In this document: piece by piece, positions 9,783 through 56,866 of the stretch
Position numbering within the stretch: position 1 is the stretch's first letter
How the letters are laid out: each line of letters begins with the position of its first letter
Origin: Mesorhizobium sp.
GTDB taxonomy: Bacteria > Pseudomonadota > Alphaproteobacteria > Rhizobiales > Rhizobiaceae
Direction of reading: 5' to 3'
DNA length: 64,000 nucleotides
Assembly (NCBI GenBank): GCA_004017535.1
Contig: SAJS01000002.1
Location: 248,001 to 312,000 of the forward strand
Program-made: the position numbers and the translations under genes
Notes under the pieces: model-generated
Databases searched by the model: none
Told to the model about the DNA's origin: nothing
The model's input: only the letters and a program-made list of their open reading frames with translations

Positions 9783-9943
9783 GGTGTATCGATATTCGGG
9801 TCAGGTCGGAGTCGAAGACGGGCGCGAAGCGACCAAACTGGTGGGTTCCGAGAACCGGAGCGGAGCGTACTTGAAGTACGTGAGCACCGGAAGCACAGGA
9901 AACCGCCGTTTGCAGGCCGGCCTCACCCGAATGTTGATGCACC
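9783..9943 (+). repeat. Long hairpin repeat, family A, copy 1
   Basis: The core GGTTCCGAGAACCGGAGCGG ... GTACGTGAGCACCGGAAGC folds on itself, and the flanks GTGTATCGATATTCGGGT and ACCCGAATGTTGATGCAC extend the stem. The right arm ends at the base next to the TAA stop codon of the MscS-type channel gene (9944-9946, minus strand). It fills half of the gene-free stretch 9631-9943. Three other copies are at 17771, 54245 and 56044. Confidence 0.85.
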
Positions 9944-12433
9944 TTAGCCAGGGTCGGGCTTGCGGCCCCTTCGCTTCATCTTGGCAAGCCGTTCCCGTTC
10001 GGCCTCGGCTTCCTCCTCCAGCCTCTGGCGCTCAGCGAATTCGGCTTCGATCTTGTCGTCGTCGATCGGCCAGGCTTCATGCTTGTTCGTCTCGACCACG
10101 GCACGCGGCGTCGACGGGATTTCGATCCGCTCGTCCTCGAAGATATCGAAGATGGCGAAACGAATATCGTTCTGCACGACGCTGCTGTTCATGATGTCGG
10201 CAACGAAGACGCGAATTTCGAACTCGAGCGCGGCCGCCCCGAAATTGGCGAAGAGGACGAACGGCTCTGGATTCTTCAGCACCATCGGATGGGCGCGGGC
10301 GATATCCAGCAGGATGGCATGGACGCGCCTCACGTCGCTGCCATAGGCGACGCCGACCTTGATTTCGACCCGCCCCAGCTTGTTGCGATGCGTCCAGTTG
10401 CCGACCGCGTTGTTGATGAGGTTCGAATTGGGCAGGATCACCGACTGCCGCTGGAAGGTCTCGATCTCGGTGGCGCGCACGCTGATCTTGCGCACCGTGC
10501 CGCTGACATCGCCGGCGACGATCCAGTCGCCGACCTTGAACGGCCGTTCGGCAAGCAGGATGAGGCCCGACACAAAATTCGAGACGACGTTCTGCAGGCC
10601 GAAGCCGATGCCGAGCGAAAGGGCGCCGGCGACCAGCGCCAGGTTGGAAAGATCGATGCCGGCCGCCGAGATACCGACGAGGCCGGCAATCGCCACGCCG
10701 GCATAGCCGACGCCCAGGCGGATCGAATTGCGCACGCCGGCATCGACCTTGCCGCGCGCCATCACCGAGCCGTCGAGCCAGCCCTGGAACCAGCGCGTCA
10801 GGAAATAGCCGACGATGAAGACGACGATGCCGCTGAGGATGCCAAGGAAAGAGATGGTCACCGAACCAATCGAGACGCCGGTCGCCAGTTTATAGGCCCA
10901 GGCCTCGATATCGCCGGGCTGGAATCCCCACATCAACAGGATCAGCGGCAGGAACACCACGATGATCATCAGGTTGATGGCGATGCTTACCACCAGCCCG
11001 AGCTGGTCGAGCGCGGTATCCTCGTAGCTTGAATTTTCCGAAAGCCAGCGTCCGACCGAAGTATCGGCGAAGCCGCCCTCCTCGCCGATCGCGCGCGCCG
11101 AAAGGAAGCCGATATAGGCCGTCACCAGGACGGTCCCGGTCACCACGACCTGGAACGCGACGAAGAGCGACAGGCCGATATAGCCGAGCAGTGCCGCGGC
11201 AATGGTGAACAGGCCGAGCCCGACGGCAAGGAAACGAAGCCAGGCCGGCCAGGGATGCCATGAGCCGTCCTCCGCCCTGAAGGGCTTCAACCACCCCATC
11301 AGGATCAGGATGACGCCGATGATGACGGTTGCGATAAAGCTCCTGGCGATCGTCAGCGAAAGCGGCGAGCCCATCTTCTCGTTGACGACCGACAGGAAGT
11401 AATTCAAGCCGAGCACCAGGGCCATCGCGGTCGTCAGCCCGACCAGCCAGCGCGCCGGCCCCGTCGCGACGGGGATCAGGCGCCAGTTGGGCAGGCGCGG
11501 CTCAAGCGCGGCGTTGGTCAGCCGGTTGACGCAGAACACCATGCCGATCACCGTCAGCAAGGCGTTGAGGAACGTTCCGATGTCGCCGCGCAGCACATTG
11601 TAATAATTGAAGAAAAACACGGCAGAGGCGAAGAAGACGCCGAGCGCCAGGGTCGGCAGCAGCGTCGACCAGAAGGCGACCGACAGCCGGCTGAGATAGG
11701 ACGGCTCCTCGACGGTTGGGTCGGCCTCGAATATGCGGCCGAACAAGCGCCTGCCGCCGATCAAGAGCACGGCCGCCAGGGCCAGCGCCATGAGCGTCGC
11801 GGCAAGGATCGCCTGGAACTTGAATTTGAGGGCAAAGCTCAGCCAGGACGACACTGCCTTGTAAAGGCCGGTGATCTGGTCATGCGCGTCGGAAAAGGCC
11901 TGCGGGCTCAGCGCATCGTTCAGATCATAATGTTTGGTGATGACGCTGCGAAAAAGTTCGCTGCGCAAGAGGGCGATCTTGTCGACCAGCCCGTTGACGC
12001 GGATCGACAGATTCTGTGCGCTGGCGACGACCGCGTTGATCTCGGCCTTCTCCGAGACGAGCGCGCTCCGCTCGTTGCCGACGATCGCCGGCTCGGGTGG
12101 CTGCCCCTGTGCCGGAGGCGGCCCAAGCACTTCGACGCGAGCATTGATGTCGTTGAGGCGCTGACGGAATGCCAGTGCGCTGGTCAGCGCCGCCCGCGAG
12201 ATGTCCTCGAGCTGCAGGCGGATATCGACCAGCCCCGCATCGTCCTGGTCGGGGTCGCTCAGTTTCTTCTCCAGCCCGTCGGTCCTGGTCGTAAGGTCCT
12301 GGATGACCTTCGTCTGGTCGGCGATGAGTTGCGCCGAGCCGTGGCCGATCGCCTGCGCCGACGCCTCGAGCGCCGGCTGCCCAAACACAGCGACGATGAC
12401 GACCAAGATCAGGCATAGCAGGCGGAAAAACAT
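9944..12433 (-). CDS. Large MscS-family mechanosensitive channel with DUF3772-type N-terminus
   Basis: 829 residues from the ATG at 12431-12433, with a signal peptide (about 1-25). A long periplasmic helical region (about 26-180, the DUF3772-like part) is followed by around ten membrane segments. The MscS pore and beta domain ('LSLGIGFGLQNVVSNFVSGL', then 'RPFKVGDWIVAGDVSGTVRKI') is near 600-690, and the C-terminus is charged. Such channels release solutes on hypo-osmotic shock, which fits a genome that handles betaine-type osmolytes. The channel is divergent from soxB. Confidence 0.9.
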   Translation of the reverse strand: MFFRLLCLILVVIVAVFGQPALEASAQAIGHGSAQLIADQTKVIQDLTTRTDGLEKKLSDPDQDDAGLVDIRLQLEDISRAALTSALAFRQRLNDINARVEVLGPPPAQGQPPEPAIVGNERSALVSEKAEINAVVASAQNLSIRVNGLVDKIALLRSELFRSVITKHYDLNDALSPQAFSDAHDQITGLYKAVSSWLSFALKFKFQAILAATLMALALAAVLLIGGRRLFGRIFEADPTVEEPSYLSRLSVAFWSTLLPTLALGVFFASAVFFFNYYNVLRGDIGTFLNALLTVIGMVFCVNRLTNAALEPRLPNWRLIPVATGPARWLVGLTTAMALVLGLNYFLSVVNEKMGSPLSLTIARSFIATVIIGVILILMGWLKPFRAEDGSWHPWPAWLRFLAVGLGLFTIAAALLGYIGLSLFVAFQVVVTGTVLVTAYIGFLSARAIGEEGGFADTSVGRWLSENSSYEDTALDQLGLVVSIAINLMIIVVFLPLILLMWGFQPGDIEAWAYKLATGVSIGSVTISFLGILSGIVVFIVGYFLTRWFQGWLDGSVMARGKVDAGVRNSIRLGVGYAGVAIAGLVGISAAGIDLSNLALVAGALSLGIGFGLQNVVSNFVSGLILLAERPFKVGDWIVAGDVSGTVRKISVRATEIETFQRQSVILPNSNLINNAVGNWTHRNKLGRVEIKVGVAYGSDVRRVHAILLDIARAHPMVLKNPEPFVLFANFGAAALEFEIRVFVADIMNSSVVQNDIRFAIFDIFEDERIEIPSTPRAVVETNKHEAWPIDDDKIEAEFAERQRLEEEAEAERERLAKMKRRGRKPDPG

Positions 12434-17770: not shown

Positions 17771-17911
17771 AGGTGTGTTGAGATTCAGGTCAGGCCGTGC
17801 CGAAAGTGGCGGGTTCCGAGAACCGGAGCGGAGCGTACTAAAGTACGTGAGCCCCGGAAGCGCGGGAAGCCGCCATTTGCAGGCCGGCCTCACCTGAATC
17901 TCAACACACCT
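17771..17911 (+). repeat. Long hairpin repeat, family A, copy 2
   Basis: The outer arms AGGTGTGTTGAGATTCAGGT (17771-17790) and ACCTGAATCTCAACACACCT (17892-17911) are perfect 20-base complements. Inside lies the shared core with the GCGTAC/GTACGT apex. It starts nine bases after the soxG stop. Confidence 0.9.
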
Positions 17912-18050
17912 TTGGTCCAGCCGCTATCTGGCACTATGAACGGCTACAACTGCTGCTTGAGCGTTGGGCCAGCAGGCGCGATAGCTAAGGAATCACGGGC
18001 GTTTGCCAATCAAACGTCCGCTCAGGCAACCAATTCGACCATACTCTTCC

Positions 18051-29320: not shown

Positions 29321-30720
29321 CAGCCCGCCTCTTGCAGGCCCTTGAAAAGGAAGGGCTTGCCCGAGCGATAGTCGTAGGCGGGATTCTCCCAGGCGATCAT
29401 CTTGCCGGGATTGAGCAGTCCTTGCGGATCGGTCTCGCGCTTGAAGGCAAGCTGCACATCATCCGTACGCTTCATGCCGCCCTCTTCCAGCGTGTAACGA
29501 TGCGGATTGAAGATCCAGCAGCCATTGTCCTCGTGGATGCGGATGATCTCGTTGAGCCGTTCTTCCGTGGTGTAGCGCACCAGCGGCAGGCCGGCCGCGC
29601 CAATCGCGCCGTCGAAACGGATGAATTCGAGATGCGCCGGCACCTCGTCGCCGAAGCGCTCGACCATCGCCTTGACGTGGGCGAGATGATCCGGCGACGG
29701 ATAGCGCGCCTGCAGATAGGTGATCGTCGGATCGACCCGGATGGCGCGTAGCGTCGTGTGGTTCCAGGTGAGTTCATAGGCTGGCGGCAATCCTTTGAGA
29801 TCGGCCTCACGGTCGGCCCGGAACACGATCTCGCCCCTGGTGCTCCGGACAAAAGCGACGAAGGCGTCCATTGCATGCGGCGCGATCATGCACACCACGA
29901 TGCTCTGCTCGCGCCGGAAGAATTTCTGGTGCCGCTTAAAATAATCGTAGGGAATGGGCGCGGCGATCGGCGTGATCAGCTTCGCCAATATCCCGTCCTG
30001 GACGGCGAGGTCGTTGCCGAAACCGGCCGCATCCATGAAATCGTCAAAGCCGACAATGACGTCGATCCAGTCGTAGGAAGCGGTCAGCGGCATCTCGACT
30101 TCGGTGATGATGCCGTTGGTGCCATAGGCATGCATGACCTTGAGCACCTCCTCGCCGGTGAGGTCCATCACGCGCGGCTCGGCTTCCATTGTCACGGTCC
30201 GCAGCCGGATGACGTTGCCGAGGTCGCGCAACCCGCCCCAGCGGATTGAACCGACGCCGCCCGAGCCGCCGGCGACGAAGCCTCCGATCGAGGCTGTGTT
30301 GTAGGTCGAGGGTGACATGCGCAGCTCCTGGCCGGAATGCGCCCGCGTCGCCTTGTCGATCTCGGCCAGCACCGCGCCCGGGCCGGCCACCACGCGCCCC
30401 GGCGCGATCGACTTGATGTCGTTCATCTCGGCGAGGTTGAGCACCACACCGCCCGACAGCGGCATCGCCTGCCCATAATTGCCGGTGCCACTGCCGCGCG
30501 GCGTCACCGGGACACCGTGCCGGTGACAGGCCGCGAGCACGCGGATCACCTCGTCCTCGCTCTTCGGCGTGACGATGAGATCGCCTTTGACATGATCGAG
30601 CTGTGCCTTCAGCACCGGGCTGTACCAGTAGAAGTCGCGGCTCTTCTGCTGGACGATCGCCGGATGGTCGTCGATCTTGATTCCGTCGAGATCGCGCTTC
30701 AGCGCTGCGATATCCATCAT
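29320..30720 (-). CDS. FAD-binding oxidase, GlcD/lactate-dehydrogenase-like (FAD_binding_4)
   Basis: 466 residues. The PCMH-type FAD domain occupies about 40-220 ('VTPRGSGTGNYGQAMPLSGG', 'GGFVAGGSGGVGSIRWGGLR') and an FAD-oxidase C-terminal domain ends with 'LLNPGKMIAWENP'. Enzymes of this family oxidise 2-hydroxy acids, aldonolactones or similar alcohols. Here it is coupled to an amidohydrolase on one side (ATGATG overlap at 30717-30720) and to two flavodoxin-fold reductases on the other, so it probably acts on a ring or acid released by the amidohydrolase. Confidence 0.9.
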   Translation of the reverse strand: MMDIAALKRDLDGIKIDDHPAIVQQKSRDFYWYSPVLKAQLDHVKGDLIVTPKSEDEVIRVLAACHRHGVPVTPRGSGTGNYGQAMPLSGGVVLNLAEMNDIKSIAPGRVVAGPGAVLAEIDKATRAHSGQELRMSPSTYNTASIGGFVAGGSGGVGSIRWGGLRDLGNVIRLRTVTMEAEPRVMDLTGEEVLKVMHAYGTNGIITEVEMPLTASYDWIDVIVGFDDFMDAAGFGNDLAVQDGILAKLITPIAAPIPYDYFKRHQKFFRREQSIVVCMIAPHAMDAFVAFVRSTRGEIVFRADREADLKGLPPAYELTWNHTTLRAIRVDPTITYLQARYPSPDHLAHVKAMVERFGDEVPAHLEFIRFDGAIGAAGLPLVRYTTEERLNEIIRIHEDNGCWIFNPHRYTLEEGGMKRTDDVQLAFKRETDPQGLLNPGKMIAWENPAYDYRSGKPFLFKGLQEAG

Positions 30721-54244: not shown

Positions 54245-54390
54245 TAGGGTGTGTTGAGATTCAGGTCAGGCCGAGTCGAAAATGGTGGGTTCCGAGAACC
54301 GGAGCGGAGCGTACTTTTCGTACGTGAGCACCGGAAGCGCAGGAAGCCGCCATTTGCAGGCCGGCCTCACCTGAATATCAACATACCCTA
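54245..54390 (+). repeat. Long hairpin repeat, family A, copy 3
   Basis: The arms TAGGGTGTGTTGAGATTCAG and CTGAATATCAACATACCCTA pair with two non-identical positions. The core GGTTCCGAGAACCGGAGCGG is present. It lies between the convergent lipB and M50 genes and its last three bases are the M50 stop codon. Full transcription from either side would form the hairpin. Confidence 0.9.
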
Positions 54391-55638
54391 CATCAACTGG
54401 GCGGAAGCCCACAGCATCCCATAGCCATGGATGGCGAAGACCGCGAGCAAAGCGCCGGCCATGATCAATCGGTCGAAGGTCTTGATCGGCTTCAGCTCGT
54501 GTCGCGGCTTCACGCCGCTGCCCACGGTGATCAGGCTGAGCATCGAGAACACCGCGCCGGCGATCAGCAGGAAGGTCAGCGAGAAACCGGCCCGCCAGCC
54601 GAGCGCGAGAAGCGCGGACAAGAGCAGGAAGGACGCCAGCGCGAGTGCCGCCGGGCCGGGGCAGATCTGGCGCAGCACCTGGCCGCCGTCGAATTTCCAC
54701 ACCGGCACCAGATTGGCGATATTGAACAGCGATGCGCAGCCGGCAAGCGTCGCCAAAAGCGTCGCGCCCAGGCGATGTCCTTCGCTGCCGGCGAGGCCGC
54801 TGGCGGCGATCAGCACCGGCACCAGGAAGGCGGAGAAGCCGGCGCCCATCAACGCCACAAACGCCACCTCGAAGCGGCTGTCATAGGGCCGGCCGCCGAT
54901 GGCAATCCCGCCAAGCAGCGGTATGAAGATCATCCGCGCCCGGCGATGCCCCGTCAGCCGGAAGGCGGCCATATGACCGAGCTCATGCAGGGCGACCACA
55001 GAGGTCAGGATCGCGGCCAGGGCCAGGCCGCCGAGGTTGAGGCCGAAGAACGGCCACAGGATCAGGGCCGAAAGCACGGCGAAGCCGATCTGGCTAACCG
55101 GATGCTCGAACCAGCCGCCCTTGCGATAAGTGCCGGTTGCCGCCCAGACATCCAGCTTGCGCAGCTCGCGGCGCATGGCGAAGAAGCGGAAGACCAGGAA
55201 GGCAACGCCGCGATAGCGGTCGGTCTGGGTAAGCGTGACCCGCGTTGCATCGCCCTCCGGCACGAGCTCGGCGGTTTCGCGATAGTTCGCCCAGAACGAC
55301 GGATCGAGCGCCGTGTCCTCGATGACGCTCATCGAGAATCGGCTACCCTCGCCGACATCCTCGAACCGCGCCTTGCGTTCGATCGGCCGGCCGTCCCGGC
55401 CGTCCCAGGACAATCTGATCAGTGCCGTTCCCTCGCCGTCCAGCGGCTCGGCCGAAAGGATTTCGCCGGACCACCCGGCATCGCTGCCGAAAGGCCACAA
55501 CGCCTGCCAGAGGCGCTCGCGGTCGGCCTTGATCGCGCGGCTGACCGTCACCGTGCGCGCCCCAAGCGGCACGGTCATCAAAAGGAAGATCAGTCCGAGA
55601 TTGCCGGCCACGAGGGTGACCGTGACGAAGACCGACAC
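54388..55638 (-). CDS. M50 family metalloprotease with an N-terminal SRPBCC domain
   Basis: 416 residues from a GTG. After one membrane helix (about 6-26) comes a START/SRPBCC-like domain (about 30-165, beginning 'VSRAIKADRERLWQALWPF'). The site-2 protease module follows, with 'HELGH' at 218-222, 'NLVPVWKFDGG' as third zinc-ligand motif and several further helices. The combination of a lipid/small-ligand-binding fold with an intramembrane protease is uncommon. It could sense a ligand that gates proteolysis. Substrate unknown. Confidence 0.85.
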   Translation of the reverse strand: MSVFVTVTLVAGNLGLIFLLMTVPLGARTVTVSRAIKADRERLWQALWPFGSDAGWSGEILSAEPLDGEGTALIRLSWDGRDGRPIERKARFEDVGEGSRFSMSVIEDTALDPSFWANYRETAELVPEGDATRVTLTQTDRYRGVAFLVFRFFAMRRELRKLDVWAATGTYRKGGWFEHPVSQIGFAVLSALILWPFFGLNLGGLALAAILTSVVALHELGHMAAFRLTGHRRARMIFIPLLGGIAIGGRPYDSRFEVAFVALMGAGFSAFLVPVLIAASGLAGSEGHRLGATLLATLAGCASLFNIANLVPVWKFDGGQVLRQICPGPAALALASFLLLSALLALGWRAGFSLTFLLIAGAVFSMLSLITVGSGVKPRHELKPIKTFDRLIMAGALLAVFAIHGYGMLWASAQLM

Positions 55639-55807: not shown

Positions 55808-55894
55808 TCACATGGCGCCGATCCAGATCGCCATGGAAACGAGAAAGGTGCTCATGCAAACCAGCGAGACGACATCCTGAACCAGATCAGACAT
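55808..55894 (-). CDS. 28-residue single-span membrane peptide, probably SOS-induced (SidA-like in size and control)
   Basis: ATG at 55892-55894, TGA at 55808-55810, 28 residues. It begins MSDLVQDVV; residues 8-27 are almost wholly hydrophobic with one tryptophan (Trp24) and can cross the membrane once. The Shine-Dalgarno GGAGAG lies six bases before the ATG. Three GTTC repeats at 11-bp spacing lie 22-47 bp upstream. In Caulobacter, SidA is a 29-residue inner-membrane peptide under LexA control that blocks division. Homology cannot be established from such a short sequence, and I claim only similar size, topology and regulation. The reading frame is real by ribosome site and promoter context, not by conservation. 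Confidence 0.7.
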   Translation of the reverse strand: MSDLVQDVVSLVCMSTFLVSMAIWIGAM

Positions 55895-55915
55895 AACTCT
55901 CTCCGTTGTTAATAT

Positions 55916-55941
55916 GTTCTCAATTTGTTCTAATTTTGTTC
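55916..55941 (-). promoter_or_regulatory. Triple GTTC SOS (LexA) box of the alphaproteobacterial type
   Basis: GTTC occurs at 55916-55919, 55927-55930 and 55938-55941, separated by exactly seven bases each time (GTTC-N7-GTTC-N7-GTTC), giving two overlapping copies of the alphaproteobacterial LexA consensus. The local sequence is AT-rich and its minus strand reads toward the small gene, so the box would cover the promoter of that gene. Confidence 0.75.
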
Positions 55942-56043
55942 GAATGTCAACGACCGTCGATAGCCCGGCGGAGCGAATTCAGCCGGTCCGTTTGGGCAGG
56001 GTTAAGGAAAGGTTGACGAGGAAGAGGTTCGTTGCGTGGAGCC

Positions 56044-56187
56044 GGGCCAAGCCGAGATCCGGATCAGGCTGAGTCGAGGATGGTGGGTTCCGAGAACCGG
56101 AGCGGAGCGTACTTAAAGTACGTGAGCACCGGAAGCGCAGGAAACTGCCGTCCGCAGGCCAGCCTCATCCGAATACCGGCTTGGCCT
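56044..56187 (+). repeat. Long hairpin repeat, family A, copy 4
   Basis: The arms GGGCCAAGCCGAGATCCGGAT and ATCCGAATACCGGCTTGGCC differ wholly in sequence from the arms of copies 2 and 3 but are again complementary to each other. The core is conserved. The right arm runs into the lolD stop codon (56186-56188). Confidence 0.88.
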
Positions 56188-56866
56188 ACAGGGGCACCAC
56201 CTTGCCTTCGGCCAGCGTCACCCGCCGGTCCATGCGCGAGGCCAGCTCGTGGTTGTGCGTGACGATCAGCGCCGCCAACCCCGATTGCCGGACCAGCGCT
56301 TCGAGTGCATCGAACACATAGGAGGCGGTCGTCGGATCGAGATTGCCGGTCGGCTCGTCGGCCAGGAGCACCAGCGGCGCATTGGCGACCGCGCGGGCAA
56401 TGGCGACACGCTGCTGCTCGCCGCCGGAAAGCTCGGCCGGCCGGTGCTGCGCGCGTTTGCCGATCTGCATGTAGTCCAGAAGCTGTGCCGCCCGCTCCGA
56501 CGCCTCCTTGGGAGGGAGCCCCTTGATCAGCTGCGGCATCATGATGTTCTCGAGCGCCGAGAATTCCGGCAGCAGATGATGGAACTGGTAGACGAAGCCG
56601 ATATCGTTGCGGCGGATCGCGGTTCGCTCTTCGTCGGAGAGCCGGCCACAGGCGCGGCCGCCAAGGATCACGTCGCCCGCATCGGGCCGCTCCAGCAATC
56701 CCGCCGTATGCAGCAAGGTCGACTTGCCAGTGCCCGACGGCGCCACCAGCGCCACCATCTCGCCGCGCCGGAGCGAAAAATCGGCGCCGTTCAGAATGGT
56801 GAGCTTGCGCGGCCCCTGGACATAGTGCCGCTCGACGCCCTTCAGCTCGATAATGGCTTCGGCCAT
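56186..56866 (-). CDS. lolD: Lipoprotein-releasing ABC transporter ATPase LolD
   Basis: 226 residues. Walker A '[20 protein letters not shown]', signature '[15 protein letters not shown]', Walker B '[11 protein letters not shown]' and H-loop 'THNHELA' with the Lol/MacB-type spacing. Together with LolC it releases lipoproteins from the inner membrane. The start ATG overlaps the lolC stop (TGATG). A longer in-frame start upstream lies inside lolC and is rejected. Confidence 0.94.

Follow-up and report, generated by a model that had tools for sequence, protein, structure and literature searches.

A conserved LexA-type operator upstream of a candidate single-span membrane micropeptide in Mesorhizobium and its relatives

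A 28-codon frame of Mesorhizobium, flanked by lolD and a gene for an M50 peptidase, is under selection, encodes one hydrophobic span, is preceded by conserved LexA-type operators, and has phage copies upstream of recombination genes. The best explanation for these observations, and one toward which we lean, is a LexA-repressed, single-pass inner-membrane micropeptide that would halt cell division. We know of no SOS-induced division inhibitor from rhizobia and their relatives. A literature search likewise returned neither an SOS division inhibitor of rhizobia nor a description of this peptide family, although subscription journals lay mostly outside its scope, making it weak evidence. The family would thus offer a precise candidate for the SOS division brake of rhizobia, one small enough for gene callers to miss.

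Results

A short conserved gene next to lolD

The features of the locus are collected in Table 1, with positions counted within the window, by which we mean the whole 64 kb stretch of DNA that was analysed. A preliminary description had placed a 29-codon frame (28 codons plus stop) between the M50 gene and lolD, and had reported a GGAGAG ribosome-binding site before it, a single hydrophobic span in its 28-residue product, and three GTTC units at exact 11-bp spacing that make up two overlapping GTTC-N7-GTTC boxes. Each of these elements is present: domain matches bear out both neighbours, the ribosome-binding site lies 4 bases 5' of the ATG, the span can be seen in the sequence, and the GTTC units start at 55916, 55927 and 55938 on the plus strand. 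The 28-aa product, MSDLVQDVVSLVCMSTFLVSMAIWIGAM, combines an acidic N-terminus with one hydrophobic span (Kyte-Doolittle mean of 2.1 over residues 8-28) and is uncharged beyond residue 9. GGAG-type ribosome-binding sites are also visible in the listed relatives of the gene. The order proS-lolC-lolD-peptide is frequent among relatives, and downstream of the peptide gene other genera have dnaE, lipB or other genes instead of the M50 gene. The window also contains four copies of a 137-base repeat (9812-9948, 17779-17915, 54256-54392 and 56054-56190), one of them between lolD and the peptide gene and another just beyond the M50 gene; the other three copies are 61-83% identical to the reference.

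Table 1. Features of the peptide locus, in window coordinates.
Feature	Position	Strand	Basis
28-codon gene plus stop, product MSDLVQDVVSLVCMSTFLVSMAIWIGAM	55808..55894	(-)	read directly
GGAGAG ribosome-binding site, 4 bases 5' of the ATG	55899..55904	(-)	read directly
Proximal LexA-type site GAACAAATTGAGAAC	55916..55930	(-)	site class conserved, 143/147 distinct loci
Distal LexA-type site GAACAAAATTAGAAC, one half-site common to the proximal site	55927..55941	(-)	
TTGACA, -35-like hexamer, its TTGAC 4 bases 5' of the first GAAC	55945..55950	(-)	read directly
lolD, upstream neighbour, outside the proposed mechanism	56189..56866	(-)	ABC_tran match
M50 peptidase gene, downstream neighbour	54388..55638	(-)	PF02163 match

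Comparison of related sequences indicates, with near certainty, that the 28-codon frame is a real gene under purifying selection. Among 62 distinct frames from Mesorhizobium and close relatives dN/dS was 0.08 (bootstrap 0.02-0.16), and the variable columns at the three codon positions numbered 10, 2 and 22 of 27; one locus with a 30-aa product (L175) was excluded from the codon counts. An ATG start was found in 146 of 147 frames. The gene occurred in all 13 of the same-genus genomes searched, the window's own genome counted, and an intact 28-codon frame together with an exact operator site was present in 80/80 of the relatives kept from a named collection (the best 80 of 146, of which 76 are labelled Mesorhizobium). 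Because dN/dS is low and the frame and the site are conserved together, the frame is best read as a gene. A profile search of the GTDB family at E 0.01 detected the peptide in 146 of 394 genomes, representing 45 of 109 genera. Two contigs of a single genome, G096, carry an identical peptide. Amino-acid conservation runs along the whole peptide. No charged residue lies past position 9 in any of the 68 distinct core peptides, and K and R are absent from 65 of them. A conserved helix face at 90-110 degrees was not significant (permutation p 0.33).

LexA-type operators accompany the gene

Of 147 distinct loci, 143 have an exact GAAC-N7-GAAC site within 90 bp of the start codon, as compared to 8 of 27,635 same-size control windows from the same loci; one locus with too little upstream DNA was omitted from this count. 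Counted by genus, an exact site was present in 41 of 44, and 80 of the 143 site-bearing loci had two or more. In the window a TTGACA hexamer lies immediately upstream, so that both sites fall just within the promoter. This arrangement recurs among relatives, for the gap from TTGAC to the first GAAC is 4 bases in 104 of the 143 box-bearing loci and 15 bases (4 + 11) in 25 more. From the last half-site to the ATG there are 21 bases. A simple sigma-70 consensus scan of the locus returned no complete promoter and no terminator.

The site pattern is unremarkable by itself, with 3 GTTC-N7-GTTC matches in 64 kb against 1.59 expected by chance, and the case therefore depends on conservation. The further match in the window, GTTCCAGGTGAGTTC at 29761-29775, is within this chance expectation. 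Genome-wide, the looser GAAC-N7-GAAC pattern showed no enrichment (156 occurrences versus 172 in the control), which means that a bare match says little without conservation, and a stricter pattern, GAACANAANNNGAAC, occurred 11 times in the same genome versus 0 for the reversed control, the sites of lexA and of a putative imuA (a name assigned from the translation) being among these 11. The exact site at lexA begins 79 bp before the lexA match of this genome, and recA carries a one-mismatch site. The peptide operator is thus of the same kind as that at lexA and, with one mismatch, recA of the same genome. The LexA consensus of Caulobacter is given as GTTC-N7-GTTC in PMC12700426. Judged from these sequence comparisons, LexA control of the peptide gene is very probable.

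Diverged members across the order

Beyond the core group, 30 Rhizobiaceae genera gave no match at E 0.01 or only a weak one, and in these we scanned the 1.5 kb that follows lolD for operator sites and short reading frames. In 18 of the 30 an exact site was accompanied by a diverged frame, about 27-43 aa in length and mostly 28-32; this count began from sites and is hence not independent of them. The same 1.5-kb stretch gave no sign of the gene in the remaining 12 genera; for one of these, a later search placed the gene 1.8 kb past lolD, under a site with one mismatch.

A widened profile that took in these diverged frames was then applied to the order at E 0.05 and matched 93 of 392 genomes, 18 in the family itself and 75 outside it. 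The matches occupied 95 listed places: 10 had been found earlier, inspection covered 60 (including 8 in the family), and those left out comprised 24 weaker places and one at a contig end. An exact site was present at 41 of the 52 inspected loci outside the family, three of which resemble unrelated matches yet were kept in the count, as compared to 86 of 19,642 control windows. The inspected non-family loci with an exact site span 14 of 16 families. Of the remaining 11, eight had a site with one mismatch, the control windows having been scored for the exact site only. Because these places were sought with the peptide profile and nothing else, the operator outside the family constitutes largely independent support, with the qualification that some seeds of the widened profile came from looking for sites near lolD. 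The preliminary description had named joint conservation of the frame and the GTTC repeats as the check on its reading, and such conservation is indeed found, both within the family and among the members inspected from 14 other families of the order. Its claim of a hidden, SOS-controlled membrane peptide is accordingly strongly supported by comparative genomics as regards the co-conservation of frame and operator, with induction and membrane insertion predicted from sequence. It had also cast the peptide as a brake of rhizobia, and this proved too narrow, since diverged members occur across the order.

Members elsewhere in the order are 26-38 aa long. They share with the core group an acidic residue at position 7, a small residue at 10, Phe 17 and often Trp 24. 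In many of them, unlike in the core group, position 6 is basic and an acidic residue lies close to the C-terminus. Outside the order, the wider profile was run on 31 chosen genomes and, with E values as high as 1 allowed, produced 17 matches. Seven were read: two, from the same family, had a site and a plausible frame (E 0.0097 and 0.088), and five did not. These two, L334 and L336, are 44-47 aa forms with an N-terminal extension and an exact LexA-type site. In a class-level search with a Rhizobiaceae-based profile, the matches outside the family came from 24 genomes and were all weak (E 0.015-0.1).

Phage and prophage copies

Six further copies of the peptide gene have no operator in the upstream DNA that was read. 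Three precede genes for exonuclease VIII and RecT, two lie within 5 kb of integrase genes, and one belongs to an island whose nature is uncertain. The core profile had no hits in a viral scan, and a scan of viral contigs with a phage-type alignment identified 12 contigs that carry the peptide. In 12/12 of these the operator was absent within 120 bp and an exonuclease VIII-like match lay within 2.3 kb downstream, several of these matches being only 24-30% identical; a RecT match was present in 9. The 12 contigs are not all independent: L355 and L356 have identical peptides and upstream bases, and L353 and L240, which are of equal length and agree in sequence over the compared genes, are probably one contig. 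A tblastn search of plasmid and phage records found nothing, a result that says little given so short a query, and a PHROG scan of three peptides, two of them phage-type, gave no match.

Comparison with known systems

Curated families did not account for the peptide. A Pfam scan of six peptides and a PADLOC scan of 84 gave no match. The NCBIfam model for SidA, NF033228, was run on 84 real and 84 shuffled peptides and had one match in each set, at E 0.067 and E 0.017 respectively. The real match had at first looked promising as a sign of SidA homology and was dropped when the shuffled control scored better; weak matches to this model mean little, because a shuffled hydrophobic peptide beats every real one. 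Other NCBIfam matches were single and weak, like those of the shuffled set.

By analogy, SidA of Caulobacter crescentus would nevertheless be the closest functional model. SidA is described as a LexA-regulated inner-membrane protein of 29 aa that interacts with FtsW and FtsN (PMC4211646). The two peptides are of nearly equal length (29 versus 28 aa), and both have a single hydrophobic span and an operator of the GTTC-N7-GTTC type; they differ in having no detectable sequence relation, as judged against the NCBIfam model rather than the SidA sequence itself.

Other small proteins offer partial parallels. YneA of Bacillus and SosA of Staphylococcus are larger, Gram-positive proteins, and SosA has a membrane span. 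In the accounts of PMC13396833 and PMC6851548 the two are SOS-induced division inhibitors, YneA having a membrane span, as the peptide is predicted to have, and YneA is stated to act on FtsW (PMC13396833). The phage copies, and these only, recall kil of lambda and kilR of Rac, which are likewise small phage genes ahead of phage recombination genes and are annotated as host-killing and as an inhibitor of FtsZ. The annotated genes are longer (222 bases for kilR, 144 or 165 for kil), and in a comparison made by description, the peptide differs in being a hydrophobic span with a chromosomal version that bears a LexA-type site. According to PMC12482147, KilR inhibits both the division and the elongation machinery. 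A further candidate relative is SEP6 of Sinorhizobium meliloti, described in PMC10117765 as a translated protein of fewer than 30 aa, conserved in Hyphomicrobiales, with one predicted membrane helix and found chiefly in the membrane-containing fraction; likened to the peptide by this description only, SEP6 could be a member of the family.

TisB and DinQ of Escherichia coli are small hydrophobic peptides induced in the SOS response, as the peptide would be. TisB has a length of 29 and forms a charged amphipathic helix. According to PMC3567139, tisB is SOS-induced, DinQ is a LexA-controlled peptide of 27 aa that depolarises the membrane, and the mRNAs of both are processed and restrained by antisense RNAs. 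The two are thus antisense-RNA-controlled toxin loci, whereas nothing of this kind was seen at the peptide locus in an Rfam scan, whose matches near the gene were all sub-threshold and implausible.

Discussion

A candidate SOS division brake

In the mechanism that we propose, the peptide gene would be free-standing and kept silent by LexA bound to its two overlapping promoter sites, and RecA-triggered cleavage of LexA would release it. The peptide would most likely insert in the inner membrane, as its single hydrophobic span suggests, and would stall division while DNA is repaired, probably through contact with membrane components of the divisome, in the way that SidA interacts with FtsW and FtsN. 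The phage copies have no LexA site and would presumably be under control of their own, probably serving to arrest the host in lytic growth. A division brake best explains the peptide because it appears to be LexA-repressed, is hydrophobic, and is kept by phages before recombination genes. The SOS brakes of other lineages are small membrane proteins (SidA, YneA), and 12 viral contigs and three prophages have the peptide where kil stands in lambda and kilR in Rac. This position is merely suggestive, racC and ydaE being also small genes at that place in Rac. On these analogies we consider a role in division somewhat the better supposition.

The same features can be read in other ways. An SOS-induced membrane peptide might instead modulate an inner-membrane protein outside the divisome, such as a protease, a transporter or a sensor, since single-span peptides of this size do regulate other membrane proteins (MgtR and KdpF are listed beside SidA in PMC3567139) and the peptide sequence names no divisome partner. 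Carriage by phages before exonuclease VIII/RecT-type genes, which is circumstantial, fits division better, and we regard such a target as rather unlikely. The length, single span and LexA-type control would also suit a toxin of the TisB/DinQ kind that depolarises the membrane and brings on dormancy. Against this, the mRNAs of TisB and DinQ are processed and under antisense control, whereas the leader of the peptide gene is short (21 bases) and has no credible Rfam partner, and the near absence of K and R and the lack of any charge after residue 9 would set the core peptides apart. The argument from charge is limited to the core group, because the wider family is often basic at position 6 and acidic near the C-terminus; overall a toxin seems improbable.

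Two further readings were weighed. As a leader peptide or upstream frame, it would regulate the gene that follows, and of 50 loci tested with six neighbour proteins, 11 do have dnaE next on the same strand and 6 have the M50 gene. In 13 of the 50, however, the nearest tested downstream neighbour was lipB, which is encoded on the opposite strand and lies no more than about 270 bp from the peptide start; the amino-acid sequence is conserved throughout its length, and the phage copies precede various genes. With downstream genes that vary and are often convergent, this reading is very doubtful. That the frame is a chance one next to a genuine LexA site could be entertained from the window alone, where the site is not rare, but the dN/dS value and the co-conservation of frame and site, intact in each of the 80 named relatives, rule it out for practical purposes.

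Taken more broadly, the division-brake reading would make the peptide a member of an old LexA-controlled micropeptide family that acts as a general SOS division brake across Hyphomicrobiales and at least one family outside the order, with phages using operator-free copies ahead of recombination genes for a Kil-like arrest of the host. We put this forward tentatively, with rather more doubt than belief. If phages do arrest their hosts with the same peptide, the phage and host copies would provide two handles on its target. Many nodule bacteroids stop dividing and elongate, and division arrest is therefore relevant to them as well.

Other LexA-type sites in the same genome

LexA-type sites were also seen near other frames at six loci of the window's own genome (L225, L224, L073, L068, L222 and L223), and these frames are possibly further SOS genes. 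In L225, for example, a 105-aa frame lies 70 bases past the start of a LexA-type site.
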